From the NCBI GenBank assembly GCA_001695595.3, contig MBPM02000171.1:21237-85236 (forward strand): 64,000 nucleotides of DNA. Reading direction: 5' to 3'. The stretch is from Plasmopara viticola. Its lineage: Eukaryota > Oomycota > Peronosporomycetes > Peronosporales > Peronosporaceae. Positions 47,910 to 55,811 of this stretch are shown here, in pieces (the stretch's first letter is position 1; each line of letters starts with the position of its first letter). The position numbers and the translations under genes were made by a program. Under the pieces are notes generated by a model. The model saw only the letters and a program-made list of their open reading frames with translations. It was not told the origin of the DNA and made no database searches.

Positions 47910-48059
47910 GTAGCAATCGTATAGCTTTGACTATTGAGACGCCTTCAGCCGTCACGCAATGCTATTTCAAGCCGACTGGTGTAAGACGTTTCAATTGCTT
48001 TCGTCGTGTTAAGCATATTTCTTCTGCCGATCCCTGTGCTTAAAAGAACAGCAAAGGAC

Positions 48060-51000
48060 ATGGTGGCGGCCAAGTATTTAAGCGCTCAAAGTAGCAAACA
48101 GACTCTACAACGCCCTCCGTCACTAACGCGCGACGATTGCATTGATGACTTGTATGAAAACAATGCATTTGGCGACGAAGACGATGCGCTCGAGAAGGCT
48201 ACAGCAAAGGCGGAAAGGAAAATGATGTCAAACGCTGTGGAGCCGCAAGGAGTCAAAGGGGCTTTTGACAGCAAAAGCCAGGGACACAAGGTGCACTTTG
48301 ACGTATGGGTAGCTCGAAAGGACAAGTATGAGCGTATGGCACGAGCATTGGCTCAGTTGGATTCGAGCCGCGCTGCTAGCGAGGATTCTTGGCTAGAGGT
48401 AGCGGTGGCCCTTGCAGCGACCGATTGTCAGCTCAAGACAGGCAAGACGTCGGCTTGTGACTGTGCAGGCGTGTGTCGTGAGCCTGCACATTCTGTGGTC
48501 AGGCAGCGCACGCGTTGTCAGTGTCCAGCACCGAAATGTTCTCTATGCAAACGCTGCGTTGGTACGAAGCCAGGAGCAATAACTCCAAAAGTGATTGCAG
48601 TGCTAGAGCAATACGAAGGAGTCCTAGGCAAATCCCTTGATAGTACGCGAGACATATTGACACTTGCAGGAAGACTCGTTCGCACCGGTGAAAGCCAGAG
48701 CCTTAGTTTGCAGAATGGAAACTCCATCCGCATCACCACAGCTGCTTATCGAATGGCGAAAACCGTCCTGGCGCAGTGCAGTGTTTTGGAATCAGCAGAA
48801 GGGGTGAGACTTCAACGCCCTTGCACGTGCCCCGTGCGCCCACTGGGAGACCTGTGGGTGAAGTGGAGCACGAAAAACCACACGTTCTCACGCGTACCGC
48901 TCACTGAAGACGAAGCGAAACAATTTTCAGCAGGCACGCGACAAATGATGGATTCCGAGAAAAGTGAAGACGGTGTTACGACATACTACATGACTCTGAA
49001 ATGGCACGCAGCCGTCAAGCCACAGAAGGGGGATACCGCCAAGATTGCTGCCCGGCGGGCGCTCTCGACAGACCAAAAGAGGCAAAACGCTTTTTTCCTT
49101 GGACTTTGTAAGAAATACTGGCAAAAAGCCCAACTACGCGTGGCTGAATATCTTCAAAAGACGTTGAGTGCAGCAAATGACAATGCGCAAGGCTCTGGCA
49201 AAGGAACGGCGGATGTCGAAATGGCGGCACTGAACTGTCTTGGCGTGCGGCGTATGTTGCATTGGTTAGAGGAAGATGCAGAAGCTTTGGAAAACGCTCG
49301 TCAGGAAGATGCTCGTGAGAAAGCCGAGGGAGGAATCGTGGCACACAATGCGTGGGTACGGCGGAAGGACCGCCTCCGTATTCGAATGCCAGCTTCGAAG
49401 GCAAATGACGGCGTGCGACCTACTCGACATATACCACCACCTCGTTTTGACTTTTCCATGGGCTCTGGTGTAGTGCGCCATAAGCGGCCTTGCCGTCCAC
49501 CAAGCTCGACCGCTGAGCTCATGCAGAATAGCGGGCTCAAGTACGTCCATGCAATGAGTGAAGGTTTCCAGGGTCGTGGTGGAGACTTGGAGAAAAGTAA
49601 GCAAGTGCTTGTCCAACAGGGCCATGTGCTGCGCGAGAACTTTGATCAAGACATCGCAGATGACGACGAAGATCCCGACTCAAAGCCATTTTCTAAAGAC
49701 CGCTATCTTTTTGAGCGCCGCAACAACCCAGCACTTCGTGAAAAAGTGGAAGGAGATCGCCGTCGACGAGAGCAAAGTCATGAAAGCTATGCAGCTTGGA
49801 TAGCACACAAGGCAATGCGAGACAAAGCAGTCAAGTTTATGAAGCACCTTCCATCGCCACGAGATGGGGCAAAGAGTGACTTGGCCGGCGACAGCAAGGC
49901 TGAGTACGAAAACGATTTCGATGAGGACTTATGTCCAAGTGGTCCTGTGACGCCAGCGGCGATGCGTTGGGAGGCGGTTGGGGAAGCACTTAAAGCCATA
50001 GACCGCAATTTGTTGGAGACGTGGGTGCGTTGGAGTCGTGGCTTTCGCAGTGCTGGGCGCTGCCGTGCATTCTGGGAAAGCTTTGCTCCAATAAGTTGTG
50101 ACGTCCATTGTGCGTCTTCGCCATTGCGAGATGTGTTTCTCAAGCTGCTACATCGTCCGTCGGGCGTTAATTATCGACAGGCTTGCGTTGAATTTTGCAC
50201 AAAGCGGTACAAACAGGCTTTGGCTCGCGGTGATAACGTCACTGAAGACGGCGACGAGCTTGACGAAGAGCTGCAGGATGACAAGCTTATCACACGGTAT
50301 GGTTTAATAACTGGACGTGAGCTAGCTGTCCTTGTTCGTGGTCTTGGGGTTGTGTTGCAGCCAGAGGAAACGCAGCGGCTCGTAGAATTCTTTACTGACC
50401 CTGAAGAGGTCCAAGAATCAAGAGTGGCAAACCGAATAAAGTTAAAGTCATTTCTAGCTGTCTTGGGAGACGAACGTCGCGCATTATGTCGTGGAGACAC
50501 GGAGCAATTGCTGAGCTCGATCTGTATGTGGGAGACTGTGTGCCACGAATGTGGCATGTTGAATGCCTTTCAGCTCGTACTCGGTACGGAAGGTTCCAGT
50601 CATCGACGTCGCGCAGAGCTTCCCGGACATGTGTGTCGGCGTGAAAGATATGGAGGCCGATTCAATTGTCGACCGGAAAGTGATATGATCGTTGTCCGGC
50701 GCGTAGCTCCTCGACGCTGTGCCTTTGCACAATGGGATGATTCAAATGCTACATTATCTCTAAAAAAACTAGAGCTGTGGTCCGCAGAGTCACGAGAGCA
50801 GCATGTTTTGCGTAGGTTAGTGACTTCTGGACAGCCTCCAGCTATCCCTACCTTTGAAAGAGATGACGATAGTGACACGCTGGACTTGACCACCATGCTA
50901 CGTTTGCGCTGGAGTATGCCTGAAACTGGGAATGGTGGAGCTCCAGCTTTCTACCAGCTCGAAACGGCGGGTGCCGAAGGATCAGCAACGTTTCGAGTGA

Positions 51001-53345
51001 ACACTTACCACGAGATCTGTCGAGATCCGAAAGACTACTCCGACAATGACGGTATGCCTCGCGGTACCTTTACGGTGACGGGTCTGTCGCCAAACACAAA
51101 GTACGCTTTCCGTGTTCGTGCACTAAACGGCTTTGGGGCTGGTGCTTATGCTTTCTCATACTTTGTAACGGCTCCAGCGAGGCCTGCTGAACCGCTGGCG
51201 ATCGCAATTGGCCCTCACAGTGTGAAACTCGCATGGGAATATTCCTCGTACTATACGCGTCGACTTCGAGAACTAGAAGAGGTTTTTCGAGAGGCTGATG
51301 CCGATGGCAATGGTCGGATCTCACGTGACGAGTTTATGGAGGAGATTGAACGCCGTAAGCCGAGACTCGTCGCTTTTCTCCAGCAGACTACAGCTGGTGT
51401 GACGGCGACCGATAGTGGAGCTGCACCATTAAGTGTCTTTGATGCCATCGAGACGGACGATAATGAGAGCATTTCATGGGACGAGTTCTTTCGGTTTTTC
51501 AGTGGTGTGTTGGACCTCGGCGATACAGCATCGCGGAGTTCTCGAACGTCTCAAAGTTCTTTGGGTTCCTCAACAAGCTCGCGTAAGCTGCTGAGTGGCT
51601 CAAAGTCATTTCGTGCCGCCGAAAAAAAGGTAAAAGGCAATAAGAAAGTGGCTTTAACTTGTCGGTACATTCTAAAGCAATGCTCAAACGAGTCCACGGG
51701 AGAATACATTGAGATCTACCGCGGTGCTGCGCCAAGGTTTGAGGTACTAGGACTGCACAGCGGTACGACCTATCAGTTCCGTGTGCAGGCGATTAATGCA
51801 GAGGGTCGCGCTAGTCTGCACAGTGAACCGGTCGTCGTTAATACACTCTTACCGACTCCAGCTCCTCCGATCGTCAATACGACATCTCTCGGGCCAGCAG
51901 TGCAAAGTGGCTGTTTGCAGCTACGTTGGTCCGTGGCTAAGGCCTTGTCAAGCCTCTCTGCTGCAGCGTCGCGGGCACCTAATGGAGCTGACGATCAAGT
52001 TTCTCGATTGCTCAAGGAGTGGGCACAGGAAACAAGTTTTGATGATGGTGCTGTCGACTTTAAAGCGCGGTTTGATCGCTACGATGTGGATGGCAGTGGA
52101 TACCTTGAGCAATCCGAGTTTCAGACACTTTTAAGCGAACTGGGTGTGCCACCGACACCAGAGCGACTCGCTGCATACCTCGCGGCCTTTGACCTCGATT
52201 CCGATGGCAAGATTTCATTCCCCGAATTCGCTCGTTGGTGGACACAGCCCGAGGTACACTACGTACTCAAACGTGACATAGGTTATCGGGATGAAAAGGA
52301 CGATAAAACGGACGTGCCCAATCTTCCGAACGCTGATAGTATGTGCCTCGTGTGTTACCGTGGGTCGGAAGCAATGACTACCGTAAGCGGACTGGAGCCC
52401 AACACGCAGTATCGTTTTCGCCTTCGAGTCGTGGGAGCTCATGCATCAAGTGCTCTCAGTGAAGCCTTAACAATTTGTACCGCCCCCAGCACTCCAGCGT
52501 GCGTTGGAAGAGTGAACGTGGGCTCCGACAAAGCACTAGTCCGCTGGCACCCAGGCCCTGGTGGTGCAGCACGATATGCAGTGGATTGCAAACGCATCAA
52601 GACTTTGATGCCACGAGCTGCCAGCTTAAACGATAGCCCCAGCGAATGGCGTCGTGCGTACGAAGGCCGCGAATCCGTGGCATGTATTCGTGAGCTGCAG
52701 CCTGAGACAACCTATCGTCTTCGTGTATTTGCAATCAACAGTGACGGTATCTCGAGTGCGCAGTCGACAGTCTCGCAACTTTGCACACTCAGTAAAGAGA
52801 ACGCACAGCGTCGTGCCCGGCTTGCGAAGCGACCAGCTGGAGCTGCCGACTACTTTACGATTGAATGTGGACCAGAGAAAGGAGACATCGTCCTTGGTGA
52901 TTCTATACTCTTTTGCGAGCGCCTTGTACGTCGCAGTAACGATGCTGATCTTTTCTCGAAACCAATCTCGGGTGTAGCGCAGACCTCAGTGTATTCTGCG
53001 ACCAGTTCATCAGGAGGCGCCGAGGCCGTCGGGGAACGCACCATCGCAGCGAAGGTCGTTGGAGTCTCTCGACATTCTCGGCACGGCAACGTATTAAATT
53101 TGAGTGTGATCTGGTGCACCGTGCAACTTTACGACGTCGAAACATCAAAGATTGCTCCAAGTCGTAATGACCACGGCAAGAAAAAGGTATCCTTCACTCG
53201 CGGCTCTGCAGCGAGCGTTGATAGCTTCTCGCTTACTCCTGAACTTAAGATATGGAGACGTGAGGGAGACTTGTACCGTTTCGACACCTTTCGAGCGGAA
53301 TGGGAAGACGAGGCTGCTCGGTACGCAAGTACGTGGGATAAGTAG
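48060..53345 (+). CDS. Large EF-hand and fibronectin type III protein
   Basis: Single exon, 1761 residues from the first in-frame ATG (48060); the frame runs open further upstream, so an earlier exon is possible. No signal peptide or membrane span. A cysteine-rich patch at about 134-170 (CDCAGVC...CQCPAPKCSLCKRC) may bind zinc. Residues about 924-1045, 1045-1265, 1265-1475 and 1478-1580 are four FN3 domains, each with the LxPxTxYxFRVxAxN-type motif. EF-hand loops are DADGNGRISRDE (1080-1091), a degenerate ETDDNESISWDE (1131-1142), DVDGSGYLEQSE (1342-1353) and DLDSDGKISFPE (1378-1389). Both EF-hand pairs lie between strand B and strand C of an FN3 domain, not between domains. Probably a cytoplasmic Ca2+-responsive scaffold; partners unknown. 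Convergent with METTL13, 67 bp apart. Confidence 0.85.
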   Translation: MVAAKYLSAQSSKQTLQRPPSLTRDDCIDDLYENNAFGDEDDALEKATAKAERKMMSNAVEPQGVKGAFDSKSQGHKVHFDVWVARKDKYERMARALAQLDSSRAASEDSWLEVAVALAATDCQLKTGKTSACDCAGVCREPAHSVVRQRTRCQCPAPKCSLCKRCVGTKPGAITPKVIAVLEQYEGVLGKSLDSTRDILTLAGRLVRTGESQSLSLQNGNSIRITTAAYRMAKTVLAQCSVLESAEGVRLQRPCTCPVRPLGDLWVKWSTKNHTFSRVPLTEDEAKQFSAGTRQMMDSEKSEDGVTTYYMTLKWHAAVKPQKGDTAKIAARRALSTDQKRQNAFFLGLCKKYWQKAQLRVAEYLQKTLSAANDNAQGSGKGTADVEMAALNCLGVRRMLHWLEEDAEALENARQEDAREKAEGGIVAHNAWVRRKDRLRIRMPASKANDGVRPTRHIPPPRFDFSMGSGVVRHKRPCRPPSSTAELMQNSGLKYVHAMSEGFQGRGGDLEKSKQVLVQQGHVLRENFDQDIADDDEDPDSKPFSKDRYLFERRNNPALREKVEGDRRRREQSHESYAAWIAHKAMRDKAVKFMKHLPSPRDGAKSDLAGDSKAEYENDFDEDLCPSGPVTPAAMRWEAVGEALKAIDRNLLETWVRWSRGFRSAGRCRAFWESFAPISCDVHCASSPLRDVFLKLLHRPSGVNYRQACVEFCTKRYKQALARGDNVTEDGDELDEELQDDKLITRYGLITGRELAVLVRGLGVVLQPEETQRLVEFFTDPEEVQESRVANRIKLKSFLAVLGDERRALCRGDTEQLLSSICMWETVCHECGMLNAFQLVLGTEGSSHRRRAELPGHVCRRERYGGRFNCRPESDMIVVRRVAPRRCAFAQWDDSNATLSLKKLELWSAESREQHVLRRLVTSGQPPAIPTFERDDDSDTLDLTTMLRLRWSMPETGNGGAPAFYQLETAGAEGSATFRVNTYHEICRDPKDYSDNDGMPRGTFTVTGLSPNTKYAFRVRALNGFGAGAYAFSYFVTAPARPAEPLAIAIGPHSVKLAWEYSSYYTRRLRELEEVFREADADGNGRISRDEFMEEIERRKPRLVAFLQQTTAGVTATDSGAAPLSVFDAIETDDNESISWDEFFRFFSGVLDLGDTASRSSRTSQSSLGSSTSSRKLLSGSKSFRAAEKKVKGNKKVALTCRYILKQCSNESTGEYIEIYRGAAPRFEVLGLHSGTTYQFRVQAINAEGRASLHSEPVVVNTLLPTPAPPIVNTTSLGPAVQSGCLQLRWSVAKALSSLSAAASRAPNGADDQVSRLLKEWAQETSFDDGAVDFKARFDRYDVDGSGYLEQSEFQTLLSELGVPPTPERLAAYLAAFDLDSDGKISFPEFARWWTQPEVHYVLKRDIGYRDEKDDKTDVPNLPNADSMCLVCYRGSEAMTTVSGLEPNTQYRFRLRVVGAHASSALSEALTICTAPSTPACVGRVNVGSDKALVRWHPGPGGAARYAVDCKRIKTLMPRAASLNDSPSEWRRAYEGRESVACIRELQPETTYRLRVFAINSDGISSAQSTVSQLCTLSKENAQRRARLAKRPAGAADYFTIECGPEKGDIVLGDSILFCERLVRRSNDADLFSKPISGVAQTSVYSATSSSGGAEAVGERTIAAKVVGVSRHSRHGNVLNLSVIWCTVQLYDVETSKIAPSRNDHGKKKVSFTRGSAASVDSFSLTPELKIWRREGDLYRFDTFRAEWEDEAARYASTWDK

Positions 53346-53412: not shown

Positions 53413-55676
53413 TTACGTAATAATTTGAATGTTACGAATGAGCTCGCACAGCTCATCGTCCACGTAATGGGGTGTTACCTGGGGCTTCCCACGGTGACGA
53501 CCATGGTCATGCAGCTGTTGCAACAACGTCTTCGCATCGGGTTCATCTGAGTCTGCTTTACGAATAAAAACAACTGTATTCACATCTTGCTCACTGGGCT
53601 TCAGTTGCAGCACAGCACGTGCGTTTTTAAACACACGATGGAGTCGCGCAATAATGTCTTTAAACAAAGTGCTGTCACGACAGGAAACGTTGATTAGCAG
53701 CACACCGCGGGGAGCGAGCAAGTTGTGCACGTGCGCCAGGAACGCATCCTCCACGAAGCTTGTAGGCGGGCAACTCATGCCTACATCGCGCTGTTTGGCA
53801 TCCACATCCATTATGATGGAATCAAATTGTGGTTTCACTGCTGCCGTAGACTGCTCCGCCACGTACTCTAGTGCATCAGCCACTACCACGCGCATCCGCT
53901 GGTCTTGCTTGAATCCAAAGTATTGCTCGGCCACCATTACGATTGTCGGATCCAACTCGCACGCTGTCACGTCCATACATGGAATATTATCATGTAGGTA
54001 TTGGGCCAGACAGCCACCTCCGAGACCAAGCACCAACGTGCGGTGCAGTGAGTCAGTTGATAGTCTGGTCGACAGTGATGCCGCGTGAAGCGATGCGACC
54101 ATGCCTTTGTGATACTCAAACGCCAAGTAAGAAGTGTCACGCCAACTTGTTTGGCCTGCGCTTTCTTCTTCCTCTGCAGTTTTTTTTTCTTGTTCTTTTT
54201 CTTCTTGACGGCTGCAGCCTCCTTGGGCGTCGTGTCGATAGGTTGAGCGACGGAAGCCTCGATCAGAGCCGGATTGGCAGCGGATGGCGATGCAGGATGT
54301 TTACGAGTCAGCATTTTTATTTCACTCTGAATAACATTGGTATTACTGAGAAACACCAGACGACGCAGCGTCTCGTCGTCTTCCTGAATCTCTTCCACAA
54401 AAAAGGCACCACTGAGCGGTGACGTGCACTGATGCACAATGTTGCGCAAACCAAGACCTTCTTCCACCGTCAGGTACGGGATCTTCTCTTCTGGGCCAAG
54501 TGTATCGGGAGCCAACTCTACAACCTTAGCGTTCAACTCTTCCTGCACCTTAGCTGTGCTCTCAAAAGCGTGACCACTACGACCTAGAGCAACGATGATA
54601 AGGCGACTAAATCCAGCTCCAGCAGCAAGCTCATTTGCCCCTTCCTCGGTCGAAAACATCCACTCGTGCTCGCGACCCTGCGGGATCAAAAACACGGCAC
54701 AGCTTCCGTTGGGTCCGCGTTTGTGGATGTCTACTAAACGCAGCGTAAAGCGTGGATTGACTTGACCATTTACGCTATTTATTCGACCTAGACTTTTCAT
54801 CGCATCTTCCTCATCATTGACAATGAGCTCAATAACCTCTTGTCGGCCGACCTTAAGCTGACGTAGCGCCGCTTGTGTCATAGCAAACCACTGCGTAGCT
54901 TCCACTTCGTGCGTCAGCCACTGCAGACGCGCCTCACCAATGTCACTGACAAAAAGCTTTGCATTGTACTGCGCTTTCTTTGCTGTCTTTACATCCGATT
55001 TTGGACACTTCAGCGCAGCTACAAGAAATGGAACAAACGATTTGCGCCCATCACGCGGGAGCTCATGGACGCTAACGCTCCAGTGCGTTTGCTCTGCATC
55101 TGCTTCAACTGGCAGGATGAAGAAACTCAAAAGGTGCTGCAGAATAAAGTCTTGTGCCATGGTGACGCAGCAGTAGCGGCCGCCCGGCGCCAGGACACGC
55201 CGCACTTCACAAAGCATTTTCAAAGCATCGTGTTTGGTTTCAGCCGTGTTTTCAGCCATCAGTGCATCCATAGCGCCTTTGTCCATTACGAGATCGAAGC
55301 TTGCATTCTCCAGTGCGCGCATGTTTGTCATGTCCATTACCTGCCACTGTAGTGCAGGGTATTTGCGCTGCATCTCGTCAATTACGCGCGCACTGAAATC
55401 AACACTCAGGAGATTTGAAAAGCCATCTGCCGACAGGTCCGCACTCAGTGCCGAGTTCCCGCAACCCACGACAAGCACGCGCACTTTGGCCTTCAGACGA
55501 CGCAGAAGCGGTGGTGGTGCGGCATCGGGGAGATTCAGCAATGCCTGTAGCTTGAAACGCAATGAGTTGTAGTCTCCGTACCACTCGAAAGCTTTCTCAC
55601 CACGCTTTTGGAAAAACAGATCCCAGTACTCTTGCTTGCGGAAGTCTCCCGCCTTGTGCGGTAGCAACTCGGTCAT
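53413..55676 (-). CDS. METTL13: METTL13-like eEF1A methyltransferase, frame broken at an A9 run
   Basis: Two methyltransferase modules. The N-terminal one (from MTELLPHKAGDFRKQEYWD) has motif I VLVVGCGNSALS, DFSARVIDEM and VMDKGAMDAL; the C-terminal one, spermidine-synthase-like, has LVLGLGGGCL, CELDPTIVMVAEQYFGF and DSIIMDVDAK...GMSCPP. This is the METTL13 layout, which methylates the N-terminus and Lys55 of eEF1A. The two modules are in different frames. The change maps to a lysine-rich linker with a run of nine A (T on the given strand, 54180-54188); one extra A would join them into 754 residues and read into EEESAGQTSWRDTSYLAFEY, matching the family SYLCCEHHKAM block. Start ATG 55676; upstream in-frame codons lack ATG. 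Divergent from eRF3 with 135 bp between starts. Confidence 0.85.
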
Positions 55677-55811
55677 TCTCAAGAGGGCCGCTTTTGCGTA
55701 GCCATTCAATCTTGACCAAAGTGCACCTGCGCAAGTCGATTACCGGTATTTTGTCATACTGCTAATCTGAAGTAGCAATTAACAGTATTCCCGACAAGCG
55801 AAATTCCAAGG
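55677..55811. promoter_or_regulatory. Divergent METTL13 / eRF3 promoter region
   Basis: 135 bp between the METTL13 start and the proposed eRF3 start. Both genes serve translation (elongation-factor modification and termination), so shared control is plausible. No element recognised with confidence. Confidence 0.4.

Follow-up and report, generated by a model that had tools for sequence, protein, structure and literature searches.

EF-hand pairs predicted to lie inside two FN3 domains of an oomycete protein, with a possible link to the zoospore

The window analysed here is a stretch of 64,000 nucleotides from a contig of the oomycete Plasmopara viticola, taken from a genome assembly of 92.9 Mb in 358 contigs. 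On the plus strand of the window an open frame runs from 48006 to 53345, and from its ATG at 48060 the whole gene (48060-53345) is a single open frame of 1761 residues plus a stop; the residue numbers of motifs and domains count from this ATG. Four tandem FN3 domains are recognized by Pfam. Over the whole protein, fn3 (PF00041) scores 89.6 bits in four stretches and EF-hand_7 (PF13499) scores 89.6 bits in two, and since these values lie above the curated cut-offs of 25 and 30 bits, respectively, the domain matches are not due to chance. Simple hydropathy gave neither a signal peptide nor a membrane segment (highest 19-residue mean, 1.44), and the protein is therefore treated as cytosolic. A second copy of the gene, 99% identical, lies on contig C68 and differs from the copy in the window (C171) at 61 bases and 17 residues, none of the 17 in the EF-hand lobes and six in the linker that leaves the first lobe. 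A third copy, at G000:C210:6938-12176, is interrupted by in-frame stops.

A sequence-only reading of this DNA had proposed that the second and third FN3 domains (FN3-2 and FN3-3) are each interrupted by EF-hands between strands B and C. The motifs that it quoted are all present, in one open frame: VKLAWEYSS begins at residue 1055 (51222), one residue beyond the position of about 1054 given for it, RYILKQCSN at 1202 (51663), TYQFRVQAIN at 1237 (51768), LQLRW at 1286 (51915), and VHYVLKRD at 1399 (52254). All features of the protein are on the plus strand. FN3-1 (50865-51179, residues about 936-1040; Pfam and model) and FN3-4 (52497-52799, residues 1480-1580; Pfam and structural alignment) have no EF insert. 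Strands A and B of FN3-2 are placed at 51180-51239 (residues 1041-1060) by motifs and model, and its strands C to G at 51660-51854 (residues 1201-1265) by motifs, model, and structural alignment. For FN3-3, strands A and B are assigned to 51861-51932 (residues 1268-1291) from motifs and models, and strands C to G to 52251-52493 (residues 1398-1478) from models and structural alignment. From the strand-B Trp to where strand C starts, FN3-2 has 142 residues (1060-1201), its insert being real but longer than the roughly 130 residues first estimated, and FN3-3 has 108 (1291-1398).

Structure prediction confirmed, at the level of the models, that FN3-2 and FN3-3 each have an EF-hand pair lodged between strands B and C. 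In two AlphaFold models, of middling confidence (pTM 0.59 and 0.55), both halves of FN3-2 form one sandwich, as do both halves of FN3-3. Strand order and structural alignments give a seven-strand sandwich for each FN3 domain, as predicted in these models. The EF-hand pairs are thereby modelled inside the FN3 domains and in both cases at the B-C point, as the sequence-only reading had it, and the two halves of each split domain pack together rather than into separate domains.

Sequence comparisons bear differently on the two domains. With the inserts in place, Pfam sees only the C-terminal halves, positions 48-82 of the 84 in fn3 for FN3-2 (24.6 bits) and 48-81 for FN3-3 (19.9 bits), as would fit another arrangement, in which each EF pair follows one complete FN3 domain and precedes the next, with the strands on either side of it in separate sandwiches. 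Once the insert is removed and the halves of FN3-2 are joined, the match extends over positions 8-82 at 28.1 bits (right half alone, 25.4), which argues against that arrangement; the joined halves of FN3-3 cover positions 16-81 at 22.6 bits (right half alone, 21.2), by itself under the cut-off of 25. In profile comparisons with FN3-4, none of 60 random left halves did as well as the true left half of FN3-2; with FN3-1, one of 60 did. The left half of FN3-3 added no signal in these comparisons, being equalled or exceeded by 41/60 random halves against FN3-4 and 50/60 against FN3-1, and in hmmsearch, run with a profile built on FN3-1 and FN3-4, neither left half improved the score, with joined, right-only, and random-left constructs alike. 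Sequence alone, then, supports a split in FN3-2 and gives no such support for FN3-3; as the tests on FN3-3 are not significant, the case for its split is a structural one resting on the models, from which we infer by coverage that it is one domain. Both models need both halves for the full FN3 strand set, and known FN3 chains and tandems superpose on the models across the inserts at 2.3-3.1 A, so that an arrangement of EF pairs between complete domains appears highly improbable. A retained intron was also considered as the source of the inserts and was ruled out, the frame being open through them in 35 of 39 aligned rows; gene models P0012, P0014, P0015, and P0016 excise different pieces, and the two models from P. 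infestans, P0011 and P0014, are at odds.

The lobe nested in FN3-2, EF-a, occupies 51240-51527 (residues 1061-1156; Pfam, model, and alignment), with a canonical loop 1 at 51297-51332 (residues 1080-1091) and a non-canonical loop 2 at 51450-51485 (residues 1131-1142), both defined by motifs and alignment. It is followed by an exit linker at 51528-51659 (residues 1157-1200), identified as low-confidence and length-variable by pLDDT and alignment lengths; pLDDT is below 50 at model residues 221-269, equivalent to protein residues 1150-1198. In FN3-3, an entry linker at 51933-52022 (residues 1292-1321; models and alignment), part helix and again length-variable and of low confidence, leads to the second lobe. 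This lobe, EF-b, at 52023-52250 (residues 1322-1397), is calmodulin-like and, as the sequence-only reading stated, a canonical pair, with loops at 52083-52118 (residues 1342-1353) and 52191-52226 (residues 1378-1389) from motifs and alignment. By region, PF13499 scores 38.4 bits for EF-a and 59.9 bits for EF-b (cut-off 30). EF-b is matched in sequence by calmodulins, and 65/65 residues align with the structure 7vur_A, which we take to be the calmodulin-derived AlleyCat9, at an rmsd of 1.6 A.

Three of the loops, all but EF-a loop 2, have the canonical ligands at positions 1, 3, 5, and 12. These three start with Asp (position 1) and end with Glu (position 12) in 35/35 rows of the alignment, and from such conserved ligands the lobes would be expected to bind Ca2+. 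EF-a loop 2 does carry the Glu at position 1 that had been noticed in it, and the Gly at position 6 is missing as well. Across the alignment this loop is unusual yet strictly kept, with Glu1 in 35/35 rows and Gly6 in 1/35; with such residues it may not bind Ca2+.

The layout extends well beyond this species. An initial protein search gave 66 hits, among which 35 (P0002-P0036) were full relatives and the remainder FN3-only or EF-only; another search, with the most distant relative as query, gave 21 hits and added Tribonema minus (P0068), the proteins P0069 and P0070, and a cut P. cinnamomi gene model (P0076). The resulting alignment had 39 rows including the window, and 35 after four cut gene models (P0012, P0014, P0015, and P0016) were dropped. 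Both EF pairs are kept in 34 relatives, comprising oomycetes, the alga Tribonema, and metagenome proteins, so the B-C insertion is conserved in other stramenopiles and, judged from these sequences, the layout is old. Exceptions in the alignment are P0070, which starts after strand B of FN3-2, and P0036, where the FN3-2 Trp is Tyr. Spacings around the lobes were measured from loop end to strand mark and include the flanking EF helix. The distance from the FN3-2 strand-B Trp to the EF-a loop is 20 residues in 33 of 34 rows and 22 in the other, and that from EF-a to strand C is 39-68 residues (35 rows). In FN3-3 the spacing from the strand-B Trp to EF-b is 41-77 residues (33 rows), the two EF-b loops are 24 residues apart in 35/35 rows, and 9 or 10 residues separate the last loop from strand C, again in 35/35 rows. 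In terms of aligned spacing, the anchoring of the lobes is a mirror image, with EF-a tight to strand B and EF-b tight to strand C.

The shared B-C site of the inserts led the sequence-only reading to suggest a duplicated composite module, in which a single EF-bearing FN3 domain was copied. Comparison of the FN3 shells by hhalign is consistent with this, as within the protein the best match of the FN3-3 shell is the FN3-2 shell (74.5, compared with 58.1 for FN3-4 and 56.0 for FN3-1); the FN3-2 shell itself scores 76.6 against FN3-4, about equal to its match with FN3-3. The lobes and their mirror-imaged anchoring argue against it, and a duplicated module is not supported: EF-a and EF-b do not resemble sisters. 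In hhalign they score 49.2 with each other, and EF-b scores 55.2 with the N-terminal EF-like pair. An EF-b profile gave 29.5-40.8 bits for 7/7 other EF proteins of the same genome and only 10.2-14.4 for five EF-a sequences, and an EF-a profile gave 11.0-21.1 bits for the same seven and 8.7-17.0 for five EF-b sequences; the comparison set was the seven two-loop open frames from the best 30 of 133 matches, the others having been lost by the frame filter. At the sequence level, EF-b resembles ordinary EF pairs and EF-a is distant from all those tested, and this divergence could mask an old duplication. Separate acquisitions of the two lobes, perhaps into duplicated FN3 shells, are favoured with moderate confidence, and the copying of one composite module is unlikely, though it deserves some weight.

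The distribution of the gene was set against that of its neighbour, a METTL13-like gene used as a control for species coverage. This neighbour lies at 53413-55709 of the window on the minus strand and apparently has two exons (two overlapping frames). The two genes have consecutive locus numbers in P. aleatoria, P. pseudosyringae, and P. infestans, which suggests that their order is conserved. The control is present in six azoosporic downy mildews, Peronospora effusa, P. belbahrii, P. destructor, Hyaloperonospora arabidopsidis, Bremia lactucae, and Peronosclerospora sorghi, and in 22 other oomycetes that we take, mostly on general knowledge, to form zoospores. In a protein database search the FN3/EF gene was named in 0/6 of the former and 13/22 of the latter (Fisher one-sided p = 0.013, uncorrected for the kinship of the six related azoosporic species and for the display of a single name per cluster). 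Zoosporic control species for which it was not named are Albugo laibachii, Thraustotheca clavata, Phytophthora citrophthora, megakarya, rubi, and boehmeriae, and Aphanomyces euteiches, invadans, and astaci. The species table holds one name per 90% cluster and candidates of 0.55-1.75 times the query length, with the control listed at E up to 1e-60 and the FN3/EF gene searched at E up to 0.001. Given the naming by cluster, the length limits, and the nine zoosporic species that are also missing, absence by name is weak evidence.

Published work, in the sections available, provides a setting for this pattern. The azoosporic habit of the six downy mildews is described there, together with a loss of flagellar genes (PMC6264045, PMC6570648, PMC9997571), and EF-hand or calcium-associated genes were depleted along with flagella (PMC6264045, PMC6570648), the missing calcium genes being called good candidates for zoospore biology (PMC6264045). 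In spores of P. infestans, more than half of the genes for calcium-binding proteins are induced (PMC5322657, section 10); the number of the FN3/EF gene in P. infestans, PITG_05299, is absent from the main text of that paper. From the main text of a flagellar-proteome study (PMC3471859) both this gene number and the word 'fibronectin' are missing, and the Pfam table available from PMC7217449 covers secretomes, its EF-hand and FN3 rows being those of Albugo only, so that it lends no support here. The species pattern by itself is a faint indication that the FN3/EF protein may act in zoospores.

These observations can be brought together in a model towards which we lean, if without strong conviction: a cytosolic scaffold of four FN3 domains in which the EF lobes act as a docked Ca2+ switch, and which may well serve the zoospore. 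The four domains would form a rod, two of them carrying an EF-hand lobe in the B-C loop. EF-a would be joined closely to strand B of its host and EF-b to strand C, with the other ends on variable tethers, so that the close end could fix the position of the lobe and the loose end permit its opening without breaking the sandwich. Binding of Ca2+ would then open the lobe and present another partner or face, or alter its seating on its own FN3 domain. A possible setting is the flagellate zoospore, in its axoneme, basal body, or Ca2+ signalling. The specific proposal that two separately acquired lobes, joined to opposite strands (B in one, C in the other) of adjacent sandwiches, make a mechanical FN3 scaffold of the stramenopile flagellum Ca2+-gated, and so help to set zoospore swimming, is doubtful.

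Other functions for the lobes have been weighed against this model. In the sequence-only reading, Ca2+ binding could deform the host sandwich. In a strain device of this kind, comparable to calmodulin set in a fluorescent protein, the opening lobes would pull on the B-C loop and soften or deform the fold; the near-fixed spacing that ties one side of each lobe to a core strand would suit it, and short linkers at both ends would speak for it. The other side varies in length (by the ranges of 39-68 and 41-77 residues, EF helix included) and in the models is partly of low predicted order, and would therefore absorb the movement; mechanical strain is accordingly improbable, and a docked lobe the likelier arrangement. 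The lobes might instead be structural, serving as permanently metal-loaded or metal-free spacers that stabilize the rod, with no connection to zoospores. The non-canonical EF-a loop 2 in 35/35 rows and the nine zoosporic control species, Albugo included, not named for the gene would fit such spacers; three loops, on the other hand, keep their ligands strictly, which speaks against them, and we regard this explanation as rather unlikely. The docked-lobe switch on a cytosolic FN3 scaffold is thus preferred to the strain device.

No EF-hand pair nested in an FN3 domain was found described in the accessible parts of the open-licence literature, in keeping with the sequence-only reading, which knew of no such case, and no paper bearing the number PITG_05299 was found in open-licence literature. 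EF-b is like a calmodulin-type EF-hand lobe (PF13499) in sequence and structure, and differs in sitting within an FN3 B-C loop. In Camgaroo and its kin, calmodulin is set in the beta-barrel of a fluorescent protein, an engineered arrangement with short linkers on both sides, and calmodulin-fluorescent protein fusions are among the sequence matches of EF-b. They share with the present protein a Ca2+ lobe in a loop of a beta-fold, whereas the lobes described here have one long variable side. The cytosolic Ca2+ sensor of the NCX exchanger also ties Ca2+ sensing to beta-sandwiches; there the sandwich loops themselves bind Ca2+, while separate EF-hands are present here. The insulin receptor has an insert in the C-C' loop of an FN3 domain. 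This large inserted segment of FnIII-2 is, in the sections available, presumed to be disordered and contains the alpha/beta cleavage site (PMC2577065). It lacks EF-hands and is part of a receptor ectodomain, unlike the present protein, in which a Pfam scan at E up to 1 gave no other receptor ectodomain or kinase domains, so the insulin receptor is an analogy only. Domain insertion is already known, and we rate EF lobes within an FN3 fold as a new form of it. FN3 domains are standard building blocks, at least one of them known with a large insert, and sensor lobes inside two in succession, retained in both oomycetes and a yellow-green alga, would constitute a natural Ca2+-responsive scaffold. 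For work on Ca2+ in zoospores the protein is a concrete candidate, and its nested layout is a template for engineered sensors.

The regions flanking the FN3 array are less readily assigned. At the C-terminus, a conserved beta-rich region at 52848-53342 (residues 1597-1761; searches and model) had no structural match among the best 50 listed, FN3 filling the listing, and the sole sequence match of known structure for the last 177 residues, at E 0.49, was not convincing. For the N-terminal 925 residues, no sequence relative of known structure was found at E up to 1. Before FN3-1, sequences and profile comparisons place an EF-like pair at 50262-50477 (residues about 735-806), the third such pair of the protein. 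Its second loop is canonical in Saprolegnia (P0033), P0036, and P0069, whereas both the window and P. infestans (P0011) have a degenerate version. P0069 also has a match to the Pfam family CCDC34, presumably linked to sperm flagella, which lies under the cut-off at E 0.00076. A W-x2-[RH]-K motif occurs three times in the N-terminal part (48294-49829, residues 79-590), and a conserved Cys-rich stretch at 48456-48557 (residues 133-166) resembles a metal-binding site.
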